35,958 nt of DNA from a virus, in IMG/VR virus record IMGVR_UViG_3300013117_000323, positions 1 to 35,958 of that record; one strand, written 5' to 3'. Positions 11,531 to 24,476 of this stretch are shown here, in pieces. The notes beneath the pieces were generated by a model. The model saw only the letters and a program-made list of their open reading frames with translations. It had not been told where the DNA came from and made no database searches. The first letter of the stretch is position 1, and the number at the start of each line of letters is the position of its first letter. Position numbers and translations under genes: made by a program.

Positions 11531-12212
11531 TGCGTCTCCTCGTATTGAGCATCATATGGGGAAAGCTATCGAAGAAGATCGAATTCAAGCTGTGTGGGAT
11601 TGGTGCTCTGAAGCGTATCTACGCCATGGAAAGCGATTGACGTTTCCTGCCAATACCGATCGCAAAAAGACTTATCAATGGCGATACGCCAGGGCTATAG
11701 CTAATAAATTCCAACAATGGGACTTTGACGATCAAACAGCTCGAAAATTTATCGATATAGCTGTGAATTATGCGAAACAGAAAGGCTCTCTACATAAAGG
11801 CCTAGCTGTTCTACATCAATCTAATATGTTGGATGTTTGCTATAAGAAATTACAAGAACAATCTGATAAGAACGGACAAGAATTGGATGTTCTTGCTAGC
11901 ACTAAGAAATGGTTCGATCAAGTAACAGATGGTAATACTATCAATATTCTATTACATCGAGCAGATCCAAGGTCCTTCTCTAATCTCACGATCTGGTATA
12001 GAGCAAATCGTTTATCGCCATTATTCCTAGCTTTGTCGCATAGTTGTACATCCGCACTTACTAGGCTTCAAAAAGACAACCCAGATGAACGCACGATGCT
12101 GCCCACCGCAGCACGATTATTTTCGTTGAGATCGAAAATCGTACAAGATCTTAATACTTTTAAGCAAGCAAGACGGATCTTTAAGACCGACTGGAGGGAA
12201 TTGTGTCCGTAG
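11520..12212 (+). CDS. Hypothetical protein upstream of ribonucleotide reductase
   Basis: A protein of 230 residues from a GTG with GGAG seven bases upstream. An ATG at 11556 (218 residues) is the alternative but has a poor ribosome site. It is helical and basic, with aromatic residues such as KTYQWRYARAIANKFQQWDF and a C-terminal RRIFKTDWRELC. I see no catalytic motif. It overlaps the reductase start by 10 bases, so the two are probably co-translated. Confidence 0.65.
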   Translation: MSVIASPRIEHHMGKAIEEDRIQAVWDWCSEAYLRHGKRLTFPANTDRKKTYQWRYARAIANKFQQWDFDDQTARKFIDIAVNYAKQKGSLHKGLAVLHQSNMLDVCYKKLQEQSDKNGQELDVLASTKKWFDQVTDGNTINILLHRADPRSFSNLTIWYRANRLSPLFLALSHSCTSALTRLQKDNPDERTMLPTAARLFSLRSKIVQDLNTFKQARRIFKTDWRELCP

Positions 12213-15200
12213 TGGCTAGGCAGATCAAGGTAGAGAACATATCTCAGAAGTACTTTAACAAGGAAGTAGAGGAAGAAAAGCACTTCAGACTTGGTGGATC
12301 ATTCCTTAGTGGATATGTTGGTAAGAAGCCCAAATTTGGCTTTGATGGTTTGGGCGAGTTCATTTTTTACCGCACATATTCCCGTGTCACGGATGATGGC
12401 TCCAAAGAGACATTCCTTGATACTGCACGTCGTGTTGTCGAAGGTTGCTACGAAATCCAAAGACGGCATCAACGTCGATTACACTTGCCGTGGGACTATG
12501 ATAAGGCTCAGGATTCAGCCCAAGAAATGTTTGAGAGGATATGGAACTTTAAGTTCTTGCCTCCCGGTCGCGGTTTATGGATGATGGGTACTGAGTTCAT
12601 GTGGGAGAGAGGATCAGCAGCCCTTAATAATTGTGGTTTTGTATCAACATATGATCAGATTGAATCTGACCCAGCGGAGCCATTCTGTTTTCTTATGGAT
12701 ATGTCTATGCTTGGTGTCGGCGTTGGGTTTGATACAAAGGGAGCTAATCGAATACAAATTCATAAGCCCGCATCTATCGATAATATCTATACGATCGCCG
12801 ATTCTCGAGAAGGTTGGGTGGACTCTCTGCGTCGTCTTATATGGTCGTATACTATAAAGTCTGATGACGGTAATGTTCTATTCAATTATGATGAGATTAG
12901 AAGAGCTGGTGAACCAATTAATGGATTTGGTGGCAAAGCATCAGGTCCAAGCATCCTACAATCACTGCATGCATTTGTGCGTGAACATTTGGAGTCTAGG
13001 ATCGGTGCGACACTCTCCAGTGTTGATATAGTCGATATCATGAATTATATAGGGGCCTGTGTAGTAGCTGGTAATGTGCGCAGATCCTCAGAAATAGCAT
13101 TAGGCTCCCCGAAGGACTATGAATATTGTATGATGAAGAGTCCTTTAGCTGATCTGACGAGTACAGAAGCTGAAGTGTTCACGGAAGTGGTGACGAAGTT
13201 GGAAGATGAGGATATTTGGCGTGCCGAACCGATAATGTTTGGCGAAATCGCTATAGGTAGTGATCGATTCCAGAAGGCCATCGATATTTGGAATGCTAGG
13301 AATAGTCATAGATGGGCATCGAACAATTCAATCTTTGCTGAAATAGGCATGGATTATACAGATTTTGCAGAACGTACTGGTATAAGTGGTGAGCCGGGTT
13401 ATCAATGGTTGGATAACATACGTGATTTCGGTAGAATGATAGATGGTAGGCGACCTGGTATAGATAGTAGAGCATGTGGTACAAACCCCTGCTTCGCCGG
13501 AAGTATGCGGATTTTGACGCAATATGGTTATGAAAGACTTGAAGATCTTTGGCTTAGCCAAGGGTCGCTTGAATATGATGGGCTAGGTAGTAATCCATTA
13601 GAGAAATATGGCGAGCAGGTCATTGTTAATGATAATGGATTGGCACCAGCAACAAAGGTGTATAGGGTTGGTGCTGATATTGTGTATCGAGTAATCCTTA
13701 CAGATGGATCTTGGGTTGATGCTACTAGGAATCATGAATTCATCGTTCTTGATAGGGCAAGAGTCAAGAAGAAGGTGGAGTATTCTGAGCGAAGAGTAAA
13801 ACTTGGGGATCTTGAAGTTGGCATGATGATCCCACTCAATCAAACAACTCACGCAACTTCTGCTAATGTGTTGTATGATATGGCATATGCAGAGTTGGCT
13901 GGCTGGGTAATAGGTGATGGTTCATTATCACCACAAAAAGATGGTCAAGTGCGTGCAAAGCGCGCGTGTTATGACGATGATGTTAGTGACGTTTTGCCAA
14001 GACTTAGAGGCTTGATGCTTGAAGTATATCACACACATACAAAGTCGACAAATCAACAACCTGTATATGCTGGTTGGAAAAGAGAGCAAAAACATTTTGA
14101 GCATGACGAAGAACATATTGGTTCTACAGTGCTAGGCAGGTTGTTAGTGGCCGATGGGGTCAGATCTGGCGATAAGCATCATATTCCTTCTAGTATATGG
14201 TGTGGATCGCGTGAGACGATAGCAGCATTTCTTAAGGGGTTCGCATCTGCTGATGGTGGTGTTCAAATTAGCGATAATGGTACAATATCGGTTAGGATAT
14301 CACAGTCTAACCAGCAATTGTTATTAGATTGCAGGTTACTGTTTAGTCAACTTGGTATAGCTAGTACTGTTCAACATCGAAGAAAATCATCTAAGCAGAT
14401 GATGAATGATGGGAAAGGCGGCAAGAAATTATATAATCGAAAAGAACAATGGGAATTGATTATATCTGGAATAAAACAAGTCACGAAATTTCTTGACTAC
14501 GTAGGTTTCATTCAGCAGTCTAAGATCACTAAAGCAAGACAATGGCTTGTTGGTAAGACTGGTTCTAATAATTCAGACACTGGTCGATATACTAAAATTA
14601 AGTCTGTTGAATGCCTTGGTGAAGACACTGTTTATTGTCTGACTGAGCCGAAAACGAATCAAGTAGTAGTTGAAGGTCATAAAGTAGGGCAGTGTGGAGA
14701 ACAGAGTCTTGAATCTTATGAATTGTGCTGCCTCGTCGAGACATTTCCGAATAATCATGATTCCGCCGACGAATATATGAGGACTTTGAAGTTTGCATAC
14801 TTATATGGGAAGACCGTCACACTATTGCCAACTCATAATGCCAGAACTAACCAAGTGATGTTAAGAAGTCGCCGGATAGGCCTGTCACAGAGTGGTATTG
14901 TCCAGGCTTTTGAGAGGTTTGGCAGACGTAAAGTGCTAAAGGATTTCTGCGATGCTGGATATAACGAGATTCGCAGATGGGATGAGATCTACTCCGAGTG
15001 GTTGTGCGTTCCTAAGTCTATCAAAGTGACTAGTGTTAAGCCTAGTGGTACTGTTAGTCTTATGGTTGGTGCCACACCTGGTATACATCACCCAGAATCA
15101 TGTACGTATTGGCGGCGAGTTAGAATATCGAATGATAGTGTACTTATCAAGATCTTACAAGATGCTGGTTATCATGTTGAACTGTCTGTTACTGATCCGA

Positions 15201-15622
15201 AGACGATGGTTGCAACATTCGCCGTAAAATGCAATGGTGTAAGGCCTGTCGGCGAGGTTAATATCTGGGAGCAAGTCAAGAATGTTGTAGACTATCAGAG
15301 GTATTGGGCTGATAATCAGGTATCTTGTACCATACGATTTCATGAACACGAGGCTAAAGAAATCGCGAAGATCTTAGCATCGTATGAGGACAGCTTGAAA
15401 GGTCTCTCATTCCTTCCTACGGAGAATCACGATTATCCTCAGGCCCCTTACGAAGCTTGCACACCGGAAGAGGTTGTTGAATATAATAATAAAGTCACTG
15501 AGCCTGATTACAGTGACTATATAACTGAGGCTGTTGGAAGCCACTATTGTGATTCTGATAAATGTGAGTTGCCACCGCCAGATCAAAAGAAGAAAGTGGT
15601 GGTTACCGTTGAGGATACTTAG
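12203..15622 (+). CDS. nrdJ: Adenosylcobalamin-dependent ribonucleoside-triphosphate reductase (class II, monomeric) containing an intein
   Basis: A protein of 1139 residues. Removing the 401-residue intein leaves 738, matching the ~739 of the Lactobacillus leichmannii enzyme. The enzyme reduces NTPs to dNTPs using a B12-derived radical and needs no oxygen or second subunit. Key cysteines are all present. C144 (LNNCGF) and C842 form the active-site redox pair. C831 (NPCGEQ after splicing) is the thiyl-radical residue. C1116/C1121 (YCDSDKC) form the C-terminal relay pair. Their spacing (11 residues between C831 and C842, 5 between the last two) matches the L. leichmannii residues 408/419 and 731/736. 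The GTG start follows GGAGG and overlaps the upstream gene. Confidence 0.92.
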   Translation: MSVVARQIKVENISQKYFNKEVEEEKHFRLGGSFLSGYVGKKPKFGFDGLGEFIFYRTYSRVTDDGSKETFLDTARRVVEGCYEIQRRHQRRLHLPWDYDKAQDSAQEMFERIWNFKFLPPGRGLWMMGTEFMWERGSAALNNCGFVSTYDQIESDPAEPFCFLMDMSMLGVGVGFDTKGANRIQIHKPASIDNIYTIADSREGWVDSLRRLIWSYTIKSDDGNVLFNYDEIRRAGEPINGFGGKASGPSILQSLHAFVREHLESRIGATLSSVDIVDIMNYIGACVVAGNVRRSSEIALGSPKDYEYCMMKSPLADLTSTEAEVFTEVVTKLEDEDIWRAEPIMFGEIAIGSDRFQKAIDIWNARNSHRWASNNSIFAEIGMDYTDFAERTGISGEPGYQWLDNIRDFGRMIDGRRPGIDSRACGTNPCFAGSMRILTQYGYERLEDLWLSQGSLEYDGLGSNPLEKYGEQVIVNDNGLAPATKVYRVGADIVYRVILTDGSWVDATRNHEFIVLDRARVKKKVEYSERRVKLGDLEVGMMIPLNQTTHATSANVLYDMAYAELAGWVIGDGSLSPQKDGQVRAKRACYDDDVSDVLPRLRGLMLEVYHTHTKSTNQQPVYAGWKREQKHFEHDEEHIGSTVLGRLLVADGVRSGDKHHIPSSIWCGSRETIAAFLKGFASADGGVQISDNGTISVRISQSNQQLLLDCRLLFSQLGIASTVQHRRKSSKQMMNDGKGGKKLYNRKEQWELIISGIKQVTKFLDYVGFIQQSKITKARQWLVGKTGSNNSDTGRYTKIKSVECLGEDTVYCLTEPKTNQVVVEGHKVGQCGEQSLESYELCCLVETFPNNHDSADEYMRTLKFAYLYGKTVTLLPTHNARTNQVMLRSRRIGLSQSGIVQAFERFGRRKVLKDFCDAGYNEIRRWDEIYSEWLCVPKSIKVTSVKPSGTVSLMVGATPGIHHPESCTYWRRVRISNDSVLIKILQDAGYHVELSVTDPKTMVATFAVKCNGVRPVGEVNIWEQVKNVVDYQRYWADNQVSCTIRFHEHEAKEIAKILASYEDSLKGLSFLPTENHDYPQAPYEACTPEEVVEYNNKVTEPDYSDYITEAVGSHYCDSDKCELPPPDQKKKVVVTVEDT
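13490..14692 (+). other. In-frame intein with LAGLIDADG homing endonuclease inside the reductase
   Basis: It covers host residues 430-830 (401 residues). It begins CFAGSMRIL (block A, Cys1). Block B is DGSWVDATRNHEF with T508 and H511. The endonuclease blocks are LAGWVIGDGSL (565-575) and FLKGFASADGGV (676-687), followed by LLFSQLGIAS. The C-terminal blocks are TVYCLTEPKT and VVVEGHKVGQ, followed by extein Cys831. The end is Gly-Gln|Cys where most inteins have His-Asn|Cys. Gln-ending inteins are known to splice. Splicing restores NPCGEQSLE. Confidence 0.93.
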
Positions 15623-15993: not shown

Positions 15994-17613
15994 ATGAGAG
16001 CTAATGTAACAAGCAACCAGTGGTTATACTTCAATCACCTGACCGAACCTGAAGAGGATATGCTTTGGGAAGAGTTCAGTGTGTCTCTCCCCAATGTCCA
16101 TATAGATCCAGACCAATTGGGACAGTGGGACGGAGTTTATCGGAAATACAACAGAGCGAAGAAAAGGATAGCTAGGCCGCTTCTGAGTATGCTTCGGGGG
16201 CTCTGCAGAAAGCATGATATACCATTGGTGGTCAAGGATCATCGCGAGAAGTGGGAATATAGCCCTATCGCACCCGATAAAGTTACTGAGGATTTCCTAT
16301 CGGGAATAAAATTACACGATTATCAGGTGAAGAGCATTAAGCAGGCCTGTCTGATAGAATGTGGAGTGTATGATATACCAACTGGTGGCGGCAAGGGTGA
16401 GATTATATGTGGTATTTGTAAGGCTATAGAATGTCCTACGGTTATTATTGCTGATCAGACAGTGGTTGTAACACAATTGAAACAACGCCTTGAGCTTCGG
16501 GATGTTGCCGAGGAGGTTGGTATATTTTATGCTGGTCGTCGCCCCAATGGTGAATTAATCGTAGTAGGACTTATTCAATCCTTGGGTAGCCCTGGTATGC
16601 CTCCTCAGCCACCTAATCAAGAGGAAGGAGAGCCGAAGGAGAAGTTTGAAAAGCGTCTGAAGAAGTGGGAATCACAATTACAGGCTTTTCAAACTCGCAA
16701 GAAGAATGCGAAAGAGCTCCGGAAATATGTGAAAGAAGCCGAGATGATTATAATTGATGAGTGCGATAAGGCAACATCAGATCAATTCAAGATGCTATTC
16801 CGGCACTGGTTTAAAGGTAGACGTCGATATGGTTTTTCTGGCACTCCTTTTGATCCTGAGAAGCCTGTGGAGGCTATGGTGATGCAGGAGCACCTTGGAT
16901 CACCTATTATGATAGTGCCTAGAAGAAGGTTGGAGAAGATAGGACAGATTATTCCTTGTGAGTATTTCTCAATGGGTTTTGGGATTGATGGAGATATACA
17001 TGAGGGATCGGCATATGATATTGCTTATGAAGAATGGATGACAGAGAATAGAGATTTTCATAAGCTCATAGCTGCTCTTTGCAATAGGTATAAGGGTGAC
17101 GGAACATTAATCCTTGTCGATAAGATAGCACTTGGGAAGCATTTGGAGAAGATTATTAGGGATAGTGGTCTTTCGACATCATTTATATATGGCCAGACTA
17201 CTAAGCGCCGTCGTGATGAAATGCTGCGTGCGTTCGAGAGGCGTGAGTTAGATGTACTTATTGGTGGTAAAATAATTAATAGGGGTCTAGACTTATCGGG
17301 TGGTTGTGAGAATTTAGTTATTGCAACCGGCGGTAAGTTAGAATCGGACTTTGTACAGAAAATTGGCCGTGCGGTACGGAGAAATCGATTAGGTCGTAGT
17401 AGGGTTTTTGACTTTTACTTCCGATGCAACAAATACCTTTACGATCATTCGAAGGCTCGTTTGCGGGCTATGGTTAATGCCGGTTATCGTACGACCATAG
17501 TGTTTCCTGGTGGAAGCATTGATGGTGAAAAACTCATCAAACGTCGATATGTCGTGCCCAAACGGCTGTTCAAACGGACACGACAAAAACAACTCATCGC
17601 CGTCGCAGACTAA
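15994..17613 (+). CDS. uvsW: UvsW-like SF2 DNA helicase
   Basis: A protein of 539 residues from an ATG with GGAGG five bases upstream. A TTG at 15982 is rejected. Motifs: LHDYQVKSIK (Q-like, 107-116), PTGGGKG Walker A (129-135), DECD (255-258), SGTPF (282-286), INRGLDL (428-434) and QKIGRAVRRN motif VI (455-464). The arrangement matches the UvsW/RAD25-type helicases of T4-like phages, which unwind branched DNA and R-loops and help move replication from origin-dependent to recombination-dependent. A charged Pro/Glu/Lys insert (200-245) lies between motifs Ia and II. The 3' end overlaps the sigma-like gene by about 92 bases. Confidence 0.88.
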   Translation: MRANVTSNQWLYFNHLTEPEEDMLWEEFSVSLPNVHIDPDQLGQWDGVYRKYNRAKKRIARPLLSMLRGLCRKHDIPLVVKDHREKWEYSPIAPDKVTEDFLSGIKLHDYQVKSIKQACLIECGVYDIPTGGGKGEIICGICKAIECPTVIIADQTVVVTQLKQRLELRDVAEEVGIFYAGRRPNGELIVVGLIQSLGSPGMPPQPPNQEEGEPKEKFEKRLKKWESQLQAFQTRKKNAKELRKYVKEAEMIIIDECDKATSDQFKMLFRHWFKGRRRYGFSGTPFDPEKPVEAMVMQEHLGSPIMIVPRRRLEKIGQIIPCEYFSMGFGIDGDIHEGSAYDIAYEEWMTENRDFHKLIAALCNRYKGDGTLILVDKIALGKHLEKIIRDSGLSTSFIYGQTTKRRRDEMLRAFERRELDVLIGGKIINRGLDLSGGCENLVIATGGKLESDFVQKIGRAVRRNRLGRSRVFDFYFRCNKYLYDHSKARLRAMVNAGYRTTIVFPGGSIDGEKLIKRRYVVPKRLFKRTRQKQLIAVAD

Positions 17614-18532
17614 CCCTGCAAATGGTGCATTACCTGGTGATGCAGCACCAACCCGCCGATTATATTTTGTCAATGAAATTGTTGAGTGGCAATTGACCAA
17701 GTACATCTGGACTGGATGTACACAAGTAAACTTACGTGACAAGATAATGTCACATGCCACTGAACTAATTAGACAAATTATCAGGAAACAAGGCCTCCAT
17801 ACGATATATCCTGGGCAAGAAGAATCTGCCTTTGGAGATCTTCTACAGACAGCGTGGTGTCAAATAGAGCGGACACTATATAAGTATCGTGCTAGACCAC
17901 ATTGTAGGTCTTGTTTTAGTCCTGATCGGCCGTCTGATTCTCTATTATATGAGCCTGCCGATAAGGAATATGGTATAAAAACGCTGAAAGAAACTCTGAA
18001 GTTACATAAGTGTTGTCCGCATTGTAAGCATAAATTGGTGGTAATTCCTATTGTAGAGCCGATGCAGGGCAGATATGGAGGATCTGAGACGGTATTATAC
18101 CGTGGGATGTCTAAAGTGTTTAATATGTGGTCACAGATATCCCGTACGGTAATCCTAGCATATATTAAGAAAGAAGCTAGGGATAGGAAGAATTCTGCCT
18201 CGTATATCGGCCATCTTAGTAATAAGCCCAAACCAACCAGTGACATCATGATTAGATTCCTTAGTGAAGCTAGGGATATGTGCAAGTATCATGATGACTT
18301 CTTAACAATCCTTAATGCACTGGAATACCTGATATACAACGATGATAGACCATATGATGGGATAATAGGTAAACTGGTGCAACGATCAGGGCTTTCTCGC
18401 CCAACAGTCACCAATTTTATCAAATTTATAAAGTTGCGGAGTCTGGAATTTACAGATTCTCCAACTAATAAAGGTGCTGAACAAAAATCCGATGGTCGTC
18501 GTGAGTCAAATATCGACCACGACGAGGAGTAG
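17522..18532 (+). CDS. gp55-like late sigma factor with zinc-ribbon insert
   Basis: A protein of 336 residues. The start is not certain. The ATG at 17522 has GGAAG five bases upstream, and a GTG at 17510 is possible. Every usable start lies inside the helicase gene. RDKIMSHATELIRQIIRKQG...FGDLLQTAWCQIERTLYKY (72-122) and KVFNMWSQISRTVILAYIKKEARDRKN (198-224) resemble the two halves of sigma region 2 in phage gp55 proteins. Between them is a CxxC...CxxC zinc-ribbon-like insert (128-131, 165-168). The C-terminus has an HTH-like VQRSGLSRPTVTNFIKFIKL. gp55 directs host RNA polymerase to late promoters. The Ser/Asn/Gly-rich first 40 residues look disordered. Confidence 0.6.
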   Translation: MVKNSSNVDMSCPNGCSNGHDKNNSSPSQTNPANGALPGDAAPTRRLYFVNEIVEWQLTKYIWTGCTQVNLRDKIMSHATELIRQIIRKQGLHTIYPGQEESAFGDLLQTAWCQIERTLYKYRARPHCRSCFSPDRPSDSLLYEPADKEYGIKTLKETLKLHKCCPHCKHKLVVIPIVEPMQGRYGGSETVLYRGMSKVFNMWSQISRTVILAYIKKEARDRKNSASYIGHLSNKPKPTSDIMIRFLSEARDMCKYHDDFLTILNALEYLIYNDDRPYDGIIGKLVQRSGLSRPTVTNFIKFIKLRSLEFTDSPTNKGAEQKSDGRRESNIDHDEE

Positions 18533-18616: not shown

Positions 18617-19369
18617 ATGGTTAAGAACCTATTGCTATTGCTATTGTTACTCGCGATTGTTGGTTGCCAACCAGCAATTTCTGTCGATCTGCAGGTTAAT
18701 GGCGATACTGCAGATACCCCGCCTGGACCCGAAATCACGGCGGATACGGAATTTACAATTACTGGGATAGTCGATAATATCGGCTCTGTGGCCGTGTCAG
18801 AAATCAATCATACGGTTGAGCTGGCACCAGGTATGCAACCGATCCAGTTGGCGCTCAAGAGCGGAGACACAAACAAAAACTACGTTCTTGATACCGACGA
18901 GACATGGATATTCGAAGAAACGGAGAAAGCCAAACTCGGCGAACACCGTCTAGTAATGAATGTCACTGGAGATGGGGTCGAAGCCTCTGATCCAGCCCAT
19001 TACAAGGGCAAATTTGATCCGCCACCACCCCCGCCAGATCGTGTCGAAGAATTTAAGGATCAGGCTTTAGCAGCAACTGCTGATCCAGATCGTATCCTTA
19101 CGGCTACGCAATTAGCTGCCGCATGTGATGCGACTGTTGCTAAGGTTACTGGTGGTGAACTTAACGGCAGGATTGAGATCTCTGAGGACGTTAGCAAGGG
19201 CTTTCGCGCTGTCCTCGACCCCAAGGGTGAGCCAGCATTAACTGCTTGGCAGCCTTTCCGCATATTGTTACAGGATTGGTTCGACAAGTTGGGGCAAGAG
19301 GGTGCGACAAACACCGATTATGGATCGTTGCTTGTTGATTGTGCTAAAGGACTCAGAGAATCAGTCTAA
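18617..19369 (+). CDS. Lipoprotein with CARDB/DUF11-like domain and unknown C-terminal domain
   Basis: A protein of 250 residues. It begins with a lipoprotein signal peptide: Met-Val-Lys-Asn, a poly-Leu core, and lipobox IVGC with lipidated C17. Gln at +2 would favour the outer membrane in a diderm. Residues 18-133 form a β-sandwich-type domain with a SGDTNKNYVLDTDETW calcium-loop-like motif typical of CARDB/DUF11 domains. A poly-Pro linker (135-140) joins it to about 110 mostly helical residues that I do not recognise. The first domain is 85% identical (my count: 17 differences in 116) to that of the M28 lipoprotein at 20975. It is predicted to sit on the infected cell's surface. Confidence 0.75.
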   Translation: MVKNLLLLLLLLAIVGCQPAISVDLQVNGDTADTPPGPEITADTEFTITGIVDNIGSVAVSEINHTVELAPGMQPIQLALKSGDTNKNYVLDTDETWIFEETEKAKLGEHRLVMNVTGDGVEASDPAHYKGKFDPPPPPPDRVEEFKDQALAATADPDRILTATQLAAACDATVAKVTGGELNGRIEISEDVSKGFRAVLDPKGEPALTAWQPFRILLQDWFDKLGQEGATNTDYGSLLVDCAKGLRESV

Positions 19370-19397
19370 TACCCAATTTTTATCCTTGGAGTCAGAT

Positions 19398-20975
19398 ATG
19401 TCCAATGAATTCCTACCATCGATCCAAGATCGAGCACTGAAAACAAAAGCCTTGGAAGCCGCTTATGCCGGTGGTTACACCGGATGCATACTTCCAGATC
19501 CGAGTACGCCAGAAGGCAGAAAAGCACTCAAGGAACAGGAGCGATTTCGAGACCTTGTCGGTAAAAATCAATATCGTGCCGAGGATTCTCTTACGATGTA
19601 CGATAATCGCGGCGACGATGAGATGGAGCCGTATCAGGGTGTTGAGGGATGTTATGTCTTTACGGCATATTCCTTCGAAGAGTTCGAGAAATACAACGAA
19701 GGATATAATAATTGGATTTACCAGATGCTCCAGAATTCTGGTAACTGTGTAGGAGCATCGGGTGCCGAGATGATGATGAATCTGCTTGGTGTCCAATCAC
19801 GAGATCCAACGAATGAATACCAGATGTTCACTCTGGCTTCATTGTGGGCCTACTCATATCGTGGTAGTTGTGGTTCTGGTTGGTATATGAGTGCTCATGC
19901 CTCTGTCGCCAGGGAACATGGTTGGTGCCCGGCCACAATTTTTGATGGTCGAGCACTAGGCACGAAGTTGACCACACCGAGTTACCAGGACTTGGAATTC
20001 CATACAGAATCCCAATGTGAGCGATATCCTTCATCTGTATGGTGTCGTGGTGGCCCGCCAGATGCTATCGAGAACTGGGTACACTCCAATTTCAGATATG
20101 ATGACGGTGCTATTGTTGAAGTTACCGGGACAAGCGACGAGATGTATAAGGGTCTTGCTCGTCGTGGTGCTTCCCTTCACCATGGGTCTAATACGACGGC
20201 TGGCTCCGGAGGACTTGATACGACAAGAGGTATCGGTGGGCATGCTCAAACATGCTACGGCCAGGACTGGTCTGACGAGTGCATCTCATGGTTTAAGAGC
20301 AAGGGCGTCAACAGTATCTCAAAATCTAATCATGCTATGCTTCATGGGCAGACGTGGGGTGGTGGTTGGAGCGGTGAGATTAGCGACTCTAATTGGCCAT
20401 TCGGTAGTCTCAGTGATGGTACAGTCATCACCTGGGCTGACGTTAAAGCCATTCGAAGTCCGAACGAAATGTTCGATCTGATGCACGCCGTGAAGGGTAA
20501 TTGGGGTTGGGGTCCTAAGAATCAGGGAGCATGGATGACAACAGTATCGACTTACAATCGATACCTAGATTCATATGATTACGCCTATTTCCCGAAATTC
20601 CAAGGTGTTCCTGGTGAGATTATTCCTCCGCCTCCGCCTCCGTATCGGCCAGTTAATGGCTATATATATGGGTCGATTGGTTCAGGTTTGCAGATTGTAT
20701 TATCTGGTACTGTCTATCATATCGATAGTGACGGTACAAGGTGTGATCATGTTGTTGCATCTGATCCGACAAATCCTGGTTCCTACAAGTTTGTTTCAGC
20801 CGCTAATTGTGCTCCTCTTAACGGTACGATTAAGGGTGAGGTTGCTGACGAGAGAATTGTGATCAGAGGAAGGCCATATCACATCGATAGTGATGGGTCG
20901 AGATACGACCATATTCTTGTTCCAGTACCTGGTCAGCCTGGTACTTTCAAGTTCGAAAAAGGGACTGTGATCTGA
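19398..20975 (+). CDS. Papain-like (C1) cysteine peptidase homologue with C-terminal β-repeats
   Basis: A protein of 525 residues from the ATG at 19398 with TTGGAG upstream. An earlier in-frame GTG at 19302 lies inside the lipoprotein gene. The NSGNCVGAS segment (113-121, C117) and IGGHAQTCYG (279-288, H282) match the Cys and His boxes of papain-like peptidases. The asparagine of the triad is uncertain; GNWGWGPKNQGAW (367-379) is the best candidate for the NSWG-type box. A PPPPPP linker (410-415) leads to two ~45-residue repeats, each with YHIDSDGxRxDH. No signal peptide is visible, so it would be cytoplasmic or virion-borne unless exported otherwise. It sits between the two lipoprotein genes. 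Confidence 0.6.
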   Translation: MSNEFLPSIQDRALKTKALEAAYAGGYTGCILPDPSTPEGRKALKEQERFRDLVGKNQYRAEDSLTMYDNRGDDEMEPYQGVEGCYVFTAYSFEEFEKYNEGYNNWIYQMLQNSGNCVGASGAEMMMNLLGVQSRDPTNEYQMFTLASLWAYSYRGSCGSGWYMSAHASVAREHGWCPATIFDGRALGTKLTTPSYQDLEFHTESQCERYPSSVWCRGGPPDAIENWVHSNFRYDDGAIVEVTGTSDEMYKGLARRGASLHHGSNTTAGSGGLDTTRGIGGHAQTCYGQDWSDECISWFKSKGVNSISKSNHAMLHGQTWGGGWSGEISDSNWPFGSLSDGTVITWADVKAIRSPNEMFDLMHAVKGNWGWGPKNQGAWMTTVSTYNRYLDSYDYAYFPKFQGVPGEIIPPPPPPYRPVNGYIYGSIGSGLQIVLSGTVYHIDSDGTRCDHVVASDPTNPGSYKFVSAANCAPLNGTIKGEVADERIVIRGRPYHIDSDGSRYDHILVPVPGQPGTFKFEKGTVI

Positions 20976-22624
20976 TGAGAAAATTGCTACTTTTAGTGCT
21001 ATTGTTGGCTGGTTGTCAGCCTGCTATTTCTGTTGATCTGCAGATTAATGGAGATACTGCAGATACACCACCTGGGCCGGAGATTAACAAGGACACAGAG
21101 TATACTATTACTGGCATAGTTGATAATACCGGTTCTGTAGCCGTGTCTAGTATCAATCACACTGTGGAATTAGATCCCGGTATGGCACCAATCCAACTAG
21201 CACTAAAAAGTGGTGATACTAATAAAAACTATGTCCTCGAAACAGATGAAACATGGACTTTCGAGGGCAAAGAGAAGGCCAAACTTGGTGAGCACCGGCT
21301 AGTTATGGATGTGACCGGTAAAGGAGTTGAAGGTACAGATATTGCTCATTACAAAGGCAAGTTCGTGCCACCTCCGCCGCCGCCTCCGTCTTCAATATCA
21401 GGTTTCAAATGGCATGATACTGATAATGACGGTACTTGGGATTCTAATGAGCCAGGACTTGCCGGTTGGACTATTAAACTGAATGATAAGACAACAGTCA
21501 CTAATAATCAAGGTCATTATGTATTTGCCGATTTATCTGCTGGATCATATGCAGTATCTGAGGTGCTACAGGATGGCTGGATTAACACATATGATGGTAG
21601 TACTACTGTTACTATTCAAGCTGGCCAGAATAAAGCTGGTAAACAGGGTGTCGCCGAGCCTTTGAACTTTGGTAATGCAGAAGAGCCTCCACCTTATTTG
21701 CCCGTTGAAGAAGCTGTTAAGAAAATCACACAAGAGGATCAGAAGGAATGGCTCTATTATCTAGCATCATCAGAACTTGATGGACGTAGGCCAAACAGAC
21801 CTGGTTATCAGAAAGCTGTGAAGTATATTGAGGATTTGTATAAGGAATGGGGGTTGGAGACGGAGCGGCAGAAAGTTACCTGGAGTGGTAGTTATCGTGA
21901 TGAGAATCTCTTTGCATATATCGAGGGTACTGATCCGGCGTTGAAAAATGATGTTGTAGTTGTAGGTGGCCACTTGGATCATTTGGGTAATGGTCGATTG
22001 GGTGCTGATGATAATGCATCTGGTTCTGTGGTCGTGATGTGTGCTGCGTATGCTTTTTCATTGATGAAGCCGGGTCCAAGAACTATTGTTTTTCAATTGT
22101 ATACGGCCGAAGAGAGTGGCTTGATAGGTGCTGGATATTACGTCAATAATCCGACTTTCCCGAAGGGAAATCCAGATATTGATGACCATATTGCTATGAT
22201 CAATTGTGATATGGTTGGGAGATATCGATTTGGTCACGTCTATTCTCAGAAACTCGGTGAACACGAGATACAATGGGCAGAACTTGGTGCTGATTGGGAT
22301 GATTATATTGATAGATTGAGTCCTACGTATCCATTTGCTGATGACCTTACTCGTACTAGTGGTAGCGCATCAGATCATGCCAGATTTAGGTCTGCTGGTG
22401 TTCCTGCAGTATGGTTGTTTACTGGTAGTCACAATGATTATCATACGAGCAGGGATACGGCGGATAAAATTAATTATGAGGACATGGTTAGGATTGCGAG
22501 ATACTGTACTGAACTTGCTTACTTGTGTGTTAATGAGGGCTACGGTGGTGAGAGACTGCCGATGATGAAGATGGACGTCGAAGACCTCAAGTATGACCAT
22601 GGTGGAGCAGAATTTTTACCGTAA
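20975..22624 (+). CDS. Lipoprotein M28 zinc aminopeptidase with CARDB/DUF11-like and SdrD B-like domains
   Basis: A protein of 549 residues. It has a lipobox signal peptide (LAGC, C14, Gln at +2), then the domain shared with the lipoprotein at 18617 (15-130). A poly-Pro linker and an SdrD B-like domain follow (142-235: ISGFKWHDTDNDGTWDSNEPGLAGW). The M28 peptidase domain spans about 245-525. Zinc and catalytic residues are all visible: H333 and D335 (GGHLDH), D345 (GADDNASG), E379/E380 (TAEES), D412 (NCDMVG) and H490 (DYHTSRDT). It should trim N-terminal residues from peptides at the cell surface. The start overlaps the upstream stop (TGATG). Confidence 0.88.
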   Translation: MRKLLLLVLLLAGCQPAISVDLQINGDTADTPPGPEINKDTEYTITGIVDNTGSVAVSSINHTVELDPGMAPIQLALKSGDTNKNYVLETDETWTFEGKEKAKLGEHRLVMDVTGKGVEGTDIAHYKGKFVPPPPPPPSSISGFKWHDTDNDGTWDSNEPGLAGWTIKLNDKTTVTNNQGHYVFADLSAGSYAVSEVLQDGWINTYDGSTTVTIQAGQNKAGKQGVAEPLNFGNAEEPPPYLPVEEAVKKITQEDQKEWLYYLASSELDGRRPNRPGYQKAVKYIEDLYKEWGLETERQKVTWSGSYRDENLFAYIEGTDPALKNDVVVVGGHLDHLGNGRLGADDNASGSVVVMCAAYAFSLMKPGPRTIVFQLYTAEESGLIGAGYYVNNPTFPKGNPDIDDHIAMINCDMVGRYRFGHVYSQKLGEHEIQWAELGADWDDYIDRLSPTYPFADDLTRTSGSASDHARFRSAGVPAVWLFTGSHNDYHTSRDTADKINYEDMVRIARYCTELAYLCVNEGYGGERLPMMKMDVEDLKYDHGGAEFLP

Positions 22625-22634
22625 GGAAATAAAG

Positions 22635-23459
22635 ATGACAGAAAGTGCATATCCTCCTGGGCATCATTTACATGGACATGATGATGCCTTAGAACAATAC
22701 ACACGAGATCGGGAAATAGATAGTCTCTTAGAACCTGACATATCTGATCAACTACAGGATGAACTCTATACACGTGATGAAGAACCAGAGCTTAGTCATG
22801 ACCAACTTCAGAATGAGCTTTTATCGTTGAGTCATCATATAGATGATATCGAAGTATCTATAGAAAAAGGCGAGAATGAATATGCCTTGGAAGGTCTAAA
22901 AGATGCAAAAGAGATTGTTGCTAGATTAGCACAATTCTTACCTCCTGATATGGGATCCGAGCTTGATAGAATGGCGGAGGACGTGATAAAGAAAATTGAT
23001 GAAGGTACTGCTACAATAGGTGACTTTCAAGCACTCATAGAATCTCCAGAAGCTATAAGGAATAGAGTGCGTAGGCATATGAGGCCTAAGAAGGGTGGGA
23101 TTCGGCAGGATGACGATGGACATACTGAGACTGGCCTGCCGAGCTTTGGTGATAGAATCAAACCAAAGAGAAAGCCAGGTCATCAACAGGATAAAGGTGG
23201 GGCCAGACGGGCACATCGTGATAGCTCTAGAACACAAGAAAGGACTATGTCTAAGAGTTTGAAGAATAGTAGGTTCTCCGAGGCTGCCGAATTTATAGCT
23301 AATAATATTGGTAAGGAAGTTGCTGCACATATATTAGAACAAGTAAATGATAAGCCAATGCTCCTAGTTGCTGCTAAAAGGTTGATGAGCGTACCTAATA
23401 TAGATAGAGATTGGCTCAATAGCTTATGTCACGAATTAAGGGTTCATGATGGCAGATAA
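22635..23459 (+). CDS. Hypothetical protein before the terminase genes
   Basis: A protein of 274 residues from the ATG at 22635 with AAGGA six bases upstream. The longer ORF from 22593 runs back into the M28 gene. The N-terminus is acidic with several His residues. The middle is helical (DQLQNELLSLSHHIDDIEVSIEKGE). A strongly basic, probably disordered stretch follows (RRHMRPKKGG through RTQERTM, about 150-212), then a helical C-terminal domain (SRFSEAAEFIANNIGKEVAAH). It may be a DNA-binding packaging partner, but I do not recognise it. Confidence 0.55.
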   Translation: MTESAYPPGHHLHGHDDALEQYTRDREIDSLLEPDISDQLQDELYTRDEEPELSHDQLQNELLSLSHHIDDIEVSIEKGENEYALEGLKDAKEIVARLAQFLPPDMGSELDRMAEDVIKKIDEGTATIGDFQALIESPEAIRNRVRRHMRPKKGGIRQDDDGHTETGLPSFGDRIKPKRKPGHQQDKGGARRAHRDSSRTQERTMSKSLKNSRFSEAAEFIANNIGKEVAAHILEQVNDKPMLLVAAKRLMSVPNIDRDWLNSLCHELRVHDGR

Positions 23460-24072
23460 ATTAGACCAAGAGATTGGTGATCTTCTGAACCAATTAGATG
23501 ATGAAACAGAAGAAGAACAAGTAATGGATCAATTGGGGATCGAGGAGTCTGATGACGAGACTCTTGGACTACCAATAGAAGAAGATTATTCAGATCTCGA
23601 AGATCCTGAGGACTTGCTTCCGGCAGAAGAGGCCTTACGTCCTGTTGATGTACGTGATCTTAGTGGTATTAATCAGGAAGAAAGCTTCGAGATAGCAAGT
23701 GATGAGGCTAGACCTGTTGTTGATCTATCAAAATACCATGAGAATTTGGAGGCTGTAACTGACGAAGTCTTGAAGGCATGTAGATCTGATAGGCAAGAAA
23801 CGCAGGATGTCATAGATTTATTACGTGGACAAATAGATAATGCTACTAATGCTAATACTCAACCACAAAGGATGTGGGTAGATGGTCTGGTGAAGGCAGT
23901 TGAAGTAAAAGCTAATATAAATTCGACTGCTGTTAAGATTATGGAAGCCAACGCCAGAATGATAGCAGCTACCAAAGCTGGTATTAATATACTTAACCAA
24001 AACGTCCAGGGTGGCCAAACTGATCTCAATGATGTATTAGATCAGCCAATGGAACCCGAAGACGAATACTAA
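23446..24072 (+). CDS. Acidic coiled-coil protein, possible small terminase (gp16-like)
   Basis: A protein of 208 residues overlapping the previous gene by 14 bases. The first ~90 residues are very acidic (EEEQVMDQLGIEESDDET). Then come LSKYHENLEAVTDEVLKACRSDRQETQDVI and a long helix with MWVDGLVKAVEVKANINSTAVKIMEANARM. T4 gp16 is a small coiled-coil protein just before gp17, so position and helix content fit. A GNAT gene lies between this gene and the terminase, and no sequence signature proves the call. Confidence 0.4.
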   Translation: MMADKLDQEIGDLLNQLDDETEEEQVMDQLGIEESDDETLGLPIEEDYSDLEDPEDLLPAEEALRPVDVRDLSGINQEESFEIASDEARPVVDLSKYHENLEAVTDEVLKACRSDRQETQDVIDLLRGQIDNATNANTQPQRMWVDGLVKAVEVKANINSTAVKIMEANARMIAATKAGINILNQNVQGGQTDLNDVLDQPMEPEDEY

Positions 24073-24476
24073 TGAATTGGTTTGAATCTACACTTGATCG
24101 AGTCCTAGCGGAAGCTATACACCGTAAGCTCCGTATAGGTTATAAGGATATTGCTGGAGATCATGCCGATATAATGATATTAGATAGAGAGGGTGCTAAT
24201 ATGTATACTGTTGTTAAAGACGGTATACCACTTGGAGTTGTTGGATTTTTTGTACATGATGGGAAGCCATTCACGGAAGTAGCAATAGATCCGGAATTTA
24301 GAGGTAAAGGGTTGATGGATGAATTTTATCAGCTATTAGCTAGAAAACATGGGTTTGATAAGTTATGGGCATTTATTAATATGAATAATAAAGCATCTGT
24401 AAGAGCACATGGAAAGATGGGATTTGATATAGTCGACAAACAACATAATAAGTTAATTTGCAGTAAAGACATGTAA
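24072..24476 (+). CDS. GNAT-family N-acetyltransferase
   Basis: A protein of 134 residues, joined to both neighbours by TAATG overlaps. TEVAIDPEFRGKGLMDEFYQLL (68-89) is GNAT motif A with the acetyl-CoA-binding RGKGL loop. It is followed by NNKASVRAHGKMGF (105-118), the motif B pattern. The substrate is not predictable. Its place inside the terminase operon suggests acetylation of a phage or host protein at packaging time, but it may simply be a passenger. Confidence 0.85.
   Translation: MNWFESTLDRVLAEAIHRKLRIGYKDIAGDHADIMILDREGANMYTVVKDGIPLGVVGFFVHDGKPFTEVAIDPEFRGKGLMDEFYQLLARKHGFDKLWAFINMNNKASVRAHGKMGFDIVDKQHNKLICSKDM

Follow-up and report, generated by a model that had tools for sequence, protein, structure and literature searches.

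An insertion in an uncultured T4-like myovirus includes a diverged form of a phage gene pair for an exported protein and a putative papain-like peptidase

Phage lysis cassettes bring together a holin, a signal-less endolysin and a Pro-rich lipoprotein spanin, and we know of hardly any work on how phages lyse bacteria that depend little on peptidoglycan or do without it. We analysed a 35,958-nucleotide stretch of viral DNA (positions 1 to 35,958 of IMG/VR virus record IMGVR_UViG_3300013117_000323; the whole stretch is referred to here as the window), which covers positions 55944-91901 of IMG/VR contig 3300009127_000001 (122,317 bp). The source phage is an uncultured T4-like myovirus, and the contig carries the T4-like genes Portal_T4, S77 prohead protease, gp25, Phage_base_V, tail sheath and tail tube. 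In the window lies a cassette of three genes. Its first two represent a divergent version of a gene pair that many viral contigs carry and that is predicted to encode an exported protein and a papain-like peptidase. The pair resembles a lysis cassette in coupling a signal-less hydrolase to an exported Pro-rich partner, with a small neighbour of one transmembrane (TM) segment in many loci. It differs in that the hydrolase would be a papain-like peptidase rather than a peptidoglycan hydrolase, and in that the window has no recognised holin beside it.

The initial annotation had placed three adjacent genes here, and they were confirmed as co-directional open reading frames (ORFs). Gene 2 starts at ATG 19398 rather than at 19302, leaving a gap of 28 nt after gene 1. 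The features of the cassette are as follows.

18617-19369, plus strand: gene 1, a predicted lipoprotein (lipobox LLAIVGC, Cys17) with a DUF7507-like immunoglobulin (Ig) domain, a PPPPPP linker and a helical C-terminal domain of ~110 residues (from the ORF and profile comparisons)
18671-19018, plus strand: DUF7507-like Ig domain, copy 1 (from tblastn to a plasmid surface protein)
19037-19366, plus strand: helical partner domain of gene 1 (from profile comparisons)
19388-19391, plus strand: Shine-Dalgarno-like GGAG of gene 2, six bases before its ATG (from the sequence)
19398-20975, plus strand: gene 2, a putative papain-like (C1) peptidase lacking a signal peptide, with a Pro linker and two C-terminal beta-repeats (from homologue alignments)
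20646-20972, plus strand: the two beta-repeats of gene 2 (from the sequence; comparable C-terminal modules occur in the peptidases of the related contig G002)
20973-20977, plus strand: TGATG stop/start overlap of genes 2 and 3 (from the sequence)
20975-22624, plus strand: gene 3, a predicted lipoprotein (lipobox LLLAGC, Cys14) with DUF7507-like copy 2, a Pro linker, SdrD_B and an M28 aminopeptidase-type domain (from Pfam and alignments)

Relatives of the phage (30 contigs) were retrieved by a major-capsid alignment made with the related contig G002, whose capsid is 90% identical. In two members of the clade, G017 and G008, exported proteins with an Ig domain, a Pro linker and a helical domain lie directly before papain-like proteins with Asn-Ser-Trp-Gly. 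A peptidase scan with the alignment of these two matched 105 viral contigs, from which 80 loci were kept, reducing to 19 non-redundant pairs. A co-directional gene lies just upstream of the peptidase in 79 of the 80 loci, and the two genes overlap by 4 bp in 57. Most partners have an N-terminal hydrophobic segment (73 of 77) and a Pro linker (71 of 77), while 75 of 77 full-length peptidase homologues have no such hydrophobic segment. When the window and G002 were left out of a helical-domain profile, it recognised 79 upstream genes and afterwards the G002 partner at 1.2e-6; the partners of the window and G002 together matched it by hhalign (95.7%, E 8.6e-9). The C-terminal domain of window gene 1 alone scored 22.3 against the independent partner profile, whereas no score exceeded 15.5 among 100 shuffles or 17.6 among 149 unrelated C-termini. 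The window has the same layout: the peptidase gene comes right after that of an exported protein with a Pro linker and helical domain, export being predicted from a lipobox here and from a signal peptide or lipobox in the pair at large. The exported partners matched no family in Pfam or PHROGs, and the pair ties these orphan proteins to a peptidase.

No description of this pair was found in the literature, which was covered in part, and it is apparently undescribed. The initial annotation had treated the three genes as one set and knew of no described system with it, a view that the same partial searches do not contradict. The exact set was not found elsewhere in the sequences searched; what recurs is genes 1 and 2, coupled in most of the roughly 80 viral loci. 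The refuting condition set in that annotation, that the genes should never occur together elsewhere, therefore has a mixed outcome. The near-invariant pairing with 4-bp overlaps, and a partner domain kept although divergent, would also suit a protease/partner regulatory pair in the host cell, with the partner acting as chaperone, inhibitor or sensor in a takeover or anti-host role. We consider this very improbable, as the two proteins are predicted in different compartments and no inhibitor, toxin or defence family was matched in Pfam, PHROGs or NCBIfam, a defence library not being searched.

Tail-fibre-like genes were often near the pair in the loci inspected, and in many the pair lies directly downstream of them. 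This position, and the missing signal peptide of the peptidase, would fit a virion protein that digests a host surface layer at entry, its exported partner aiding assembly or release. Such a role appears distinctly unlikely, because an exported and translationally coupled partner is odd for a virion protein and the cassette of the window is inserted outside the tail genes. In 52 of the 80 loci a small one-TM protein, in most cases bearing a hydrophilic tail, was noted close to the pair. Among the flanking genes (L157-L236) are a conserved one-TM protein of ~90 residues, mostly downstream of the pair and sometimes upstream (e.g. L168:5047-5325), and a helical protein of ~100 residues, with HNH often following. 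Small exported proteins with FEGVGFS..SA..ALRNCCYYG occur in 28 of the 80 loci (e.g. L212:6949-7194, minus strand); these may be planctomycete-like.

The product of gene 2 is a putative and divergent papain-like peptidase. In common with the papain family (PF00112, MEROPS C1) it has Cys and His motifs in order, and its homologues have Cys, His and Asn-Ser-Trp-Gly; it departs from the family in its Gln-Thr-Trp-Gly, long insertions and C-terminal Pro linker and beta-repeats. The active-site-type residues are Gln113, Cys118, His283 and Gln319 (counted from nt 19395), and the catalytic Cys and His, with the preceding Gln, are kept in G002 and aligned to the family columns. The Asn of papain is replaced by Gln in both the window and G002, compared with Asn-Ser-Trp-Gly in 19/19 non-redundant homologues. 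In an unguided 21-row alignment, the Cys, His and Gln-Thr-Trp-Gly of the window nevertheless fall on the family Cys, His and Asn-Ser-Trp-Gly columns. The profile of this alignment matches PDB papains (9.9e-10 for the cysteine protease 3ois), and PF00112 was matched by 5 of the 21 members (best 1.3e-8).

On its own, the gene 2 protein had no match in Pfam, NCBIfam, PHROGs, PDB, phages or plasmids. Its Alphafold2 model from the 21-row alignment was poor (predicted template modelling score, pTM, 0.42), as was a single-sequence model, and Foldseek with the former returned nothing. Membership of the papain family is therefore argued from the register of the motifs and the conserved partner. The peptidases of the window and G002 were not significantly similar to those of G017 and G008 by hhalign. 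Of 5,754 ORFs, a regular expression for the Cys/His motif picked out the four C1-like proteins and nothing else, and pattern scans on the two motifs gave one true relative (L024) and chance matches. Of the papain-like homologue with beta-repeats proposed initially, the Cys/His motif and both repeats hold up, with Gln in place of the catalytic Asn.

Genes 1 and 3 were the only lipoprotein-like ORFs that a simple scan found on the 122-kb contig. Their N-terminal blocks share about 81-82% amino acid identity (dN 0.12, dS saturated), and by this comparison are an old duplication of which two copies have been kept under purifying selection. With a diverged copy of the lipoprotein/Ig N-domain of gene 1 present in gene 3, both products have a targeting block in common. 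The block itself has no direct Pfam match; a plasmid surface protein is related to it (tblastn, 37%), and the aligned segment of that protein matches PF24346 at 1.7e-7. Seen through this plasmid match, the block appears to be a DUF7507-like Ig domain. The reading of two lipoproteins with a shared anchor domain is accordingly kept for the lipoboxes and the common block, and dropped for the special anchor. Gene 3 has strong matches to SdrD_B (PF17210, 2.9e-11) and M28 (PF04389, 5.3e-35; 121.3 bits against a curated cut-off of 21.3), bearing out the M28 zinc peptidase behind SdrD-like spacing that had been noticed from the translation. Its GGHLDH, GADDNASG, TAEESG, NCDMVG and NDYHT motifs align to the zinc ligands and catalytic Glu of the M28 aminopeptidases 1cp7 and 2ek8. 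The difference from these enzymes is that the M28 domain sits on a phage-encoded lipoprotein behind DUF7507-like and SdrD_B spacers. No phage protein closely related to gene 3 was found (best 28%), and PF04389 was matched in 0/26 other records.

The initial annotation had put all three products on the surface of the infected cell and led with the trimming of receptors, by which surface-displayed lipoprotein peptidase activity would exclude competing phages. Two predicted lipoproteins, one with M28 active-site motifs, agree with this, as do the cargo-like, variable distribution of the cassette and the presence on the contig of envelope/glycan-type enzymes such as a GT2 glycosyltransferase. However, without a signal peptide, which nearly all its homologues lack as well, the papain-like protein would be kept from the surface until lysis; in addition, a motif scan recognised no second peptidase beside the pair in the 80 loci. 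For the first of these reasons we treat receptor trimming as a rival rather than the lead, and think it unlikely.

In G002, an exported protein (PDPPDPPD linker, helical C-domain), a papain-like protein and then a metzincin-like protein are encoded at another locus, on the minus strand. The papain-like protein is 38-39% identical to gene 2, with its motifs kept. Thus, this close relative has the pair, with a metzincin-like protein (HEAGHNHDLPH; reprolysin-type matches below Pfam cut-offs) in place of M28. The papain-like and metzincin-like proteins of G002 share a C-terminal beta-module (84% amino acid identity), whereas in the window it is genes 1 and 3 that have a block in common, their lipoprotein/Ig N-domain; each phage seems to connect two peptidase systems, but by a different shared module. 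The matrixins/metzincins of the clade (G025, G013 and G002) are similar to the cassette in offering a second peptidase, a Pro-linked C-terminal beta tail and an encoded exported helical partner, and different in having a metzincin rather than an M28 fold. In G025 and G013 the metzincin is also several genes from the partner, and no papain-like gene was found. Two phage matrixins, L101:3339-4253 and L155:2153-3118 (minus strand), match PF00413 at 4e-34 and 7e-35, and have a PG_binding-type prodomain, a PRCGCPD cysteine-switch motif like that of matrix metalloproteinases and, at the end, a Pro linker and short beta tail. G002 also has a second small papain-like candidate without a Pfam match (L026:13728-14195, minus strand; QGMDSCCF ... 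NSW).

The variation of the third gene between M28 and metzincin-like, and the resemblance of the SdrD_B and DUF7507-like modules to bacterial surface proteins, might point to host-derived cargo for scavenging or remodelling, in which the peptidases digest envelope or environmental protein and supply amino acids during infection. This seems quite improbable: two scans of genome contigs (few patterns, low sensitivity) turned up no homologue of the papain-like protein in bacteria, and genes so tightly paired and translationally coupled look more like parts of one specific mechanism than like a means of bulk digestion.

The cassette is variable cargo, an insertion relative to related phages. It is bounded by two conserved genes.

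17510-18532, plus strand: conserved gene at the left edge of the insertion, 57-70% identical in relatives
22635-23459, plus strand: conserved gene g22593 at the right edge (ATG 22635, AAGGAAA upstream), with homologues in relatives

Terminase-anchored regions were compared in 14 of the 30 contigs, where the common gene order is ribonucleotide reductase (RNR), helicase, the left-edge gene, g22593, g23446 and terL. In 13 related contigs the left-edge gene is followed by g22593 with no cassette, directly in 12 and with a 103-residue ORF between them in L082; several of the 13 are near-identical, giving roughly 8 lineages by eye. L095 is rearranged here, unlike the 13. We call the cassette cargo because both flanks are kept in the 13 relatives and it is missing at their junction. 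That it is not core virion machinery, as was first proposed, is consistent with these retained flanks and with the predicted export of its parts. The left-edge gene had been labelled 'sigma', for which Pfam and PHROGs gave no confirmation; the gene is nonetheless kept in relatives.

The TGATG overlap suggests that genes 2 and 3 are translationally coupled. A promoter of the cassette's own, read from a promoter-like leader in the initial annotation, was rejected: sigma70-like sites numbered 17 in the region (18.2 expected) with none in the leader, and TATAAATA with at most one mismatch was seen 45 times against 59 expected. Elsewhere in the window, a B12-type RNR (12203-15622) is split by a LAGLIDADG intein, and oversized RNR, helicase, left-edge gene or terminase ORFs in G008, G011, G006 and G018 suggest further inteins. 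A GNAT acetyltransferase (24072-24476) lies between g23446 and terL, and may be a second cargo gene of the region since terL seems to follow g23446 directly in the relatives inspected.

The hosts are probably Planctomycetota. DUF1559, described as apparently restricted to Planctomycetes (PMC10632474; PMC2754498), was found in one clade member, G013 (capsid about 87% identical), the only one among 48 records. In Planctopirus limnophila most peptidoglycan-synthesis genes are not essential (PMC10632474). The G013 gene is pseudopilin-like (L086:4623-5534, minus strand; G013:C1:16944-17207) and occupies a variable slot between RNR and helicase. Searches of plasmids for planctomycete markers gave no match. 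As for lysis genes, Amidase_2, Phage_lysozyme, M15_3 and CHAP were absent from all 27 pair-carrying or same-clade contigs, compared with matches in 8 of 21 arbitrary viral contigs; for the three endolysin families tested first the figures were 0/27 and 7/21 (Fisher p 0.0016, ~0.02 with a rough redundancy correction). For 40 other ORFs of the contig, the 25 PHROG families listed (of 31) included none for lysis. Only one holin-like ORF was found (G001 contig 45857-46204, L010:5857-6204; PF16083, E 5e-5, below cut-off), and a 596-residue ORF with an N-terminal TM segment follows it.

From the context of the pair, the absence of endolysin families and the link through DUF1559 to planctomycetes, our leading guess, offered tentatively, is that the peptidases help to open the host envelope at lysis or egress. 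The cassette would then act late. The papain-like enzyme would build up in the cytoplasm, as endolysins do, and be freed once the inner membrane is permeabilised; it could then dock on the helical domain of the envelope-tethered partner and cut envelope proteins, while the lipoprotein M28 might trim the products or neighbouring surface proteins. Hosts whose main barrier is something other than peptidoglycan, probably Planctomycetota here, would suit such a mechanism.

Several points weigh against a role in lysis or egress. The papain-like protein of the window is weakly tied to the wider family by sequence: a deeper profile reached only P 0.016 by hhalign, with the Cys motif in register, and the predicted fold is poor. 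A single DUF1559 gene, found in a relative, underlies the host assignment. The control contigs for the endolysin comparison are unmatched and partly redundant as well as arbitrary, and all records may be fragments. The weak holin candidate is ~28 kb from the cassette, and no holin adjoins it in the window. Lysis is not an obvious role for an M28 aminopeptidase. Since the cassette is missing from most of the clade, those phages must have another lysis route.

A broader proposal, which we regard as doubtful, is that phages of bacteria for which peptidoglycan is dispensable, such as planctomycetes, use proteolytic lysis, in which a papain-like 'endolysin' would dock on an exported tether, with M28 or metzincin-type peptidases as an optional addition, and take the place of a peptidoglycan hydrolase. 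The two-gene peptidase module, conserved in more than 100 viral contigs and accompanied by none of the common endolysin families in the contigs tested, offers a testable candidate for how phages open such bacteria.

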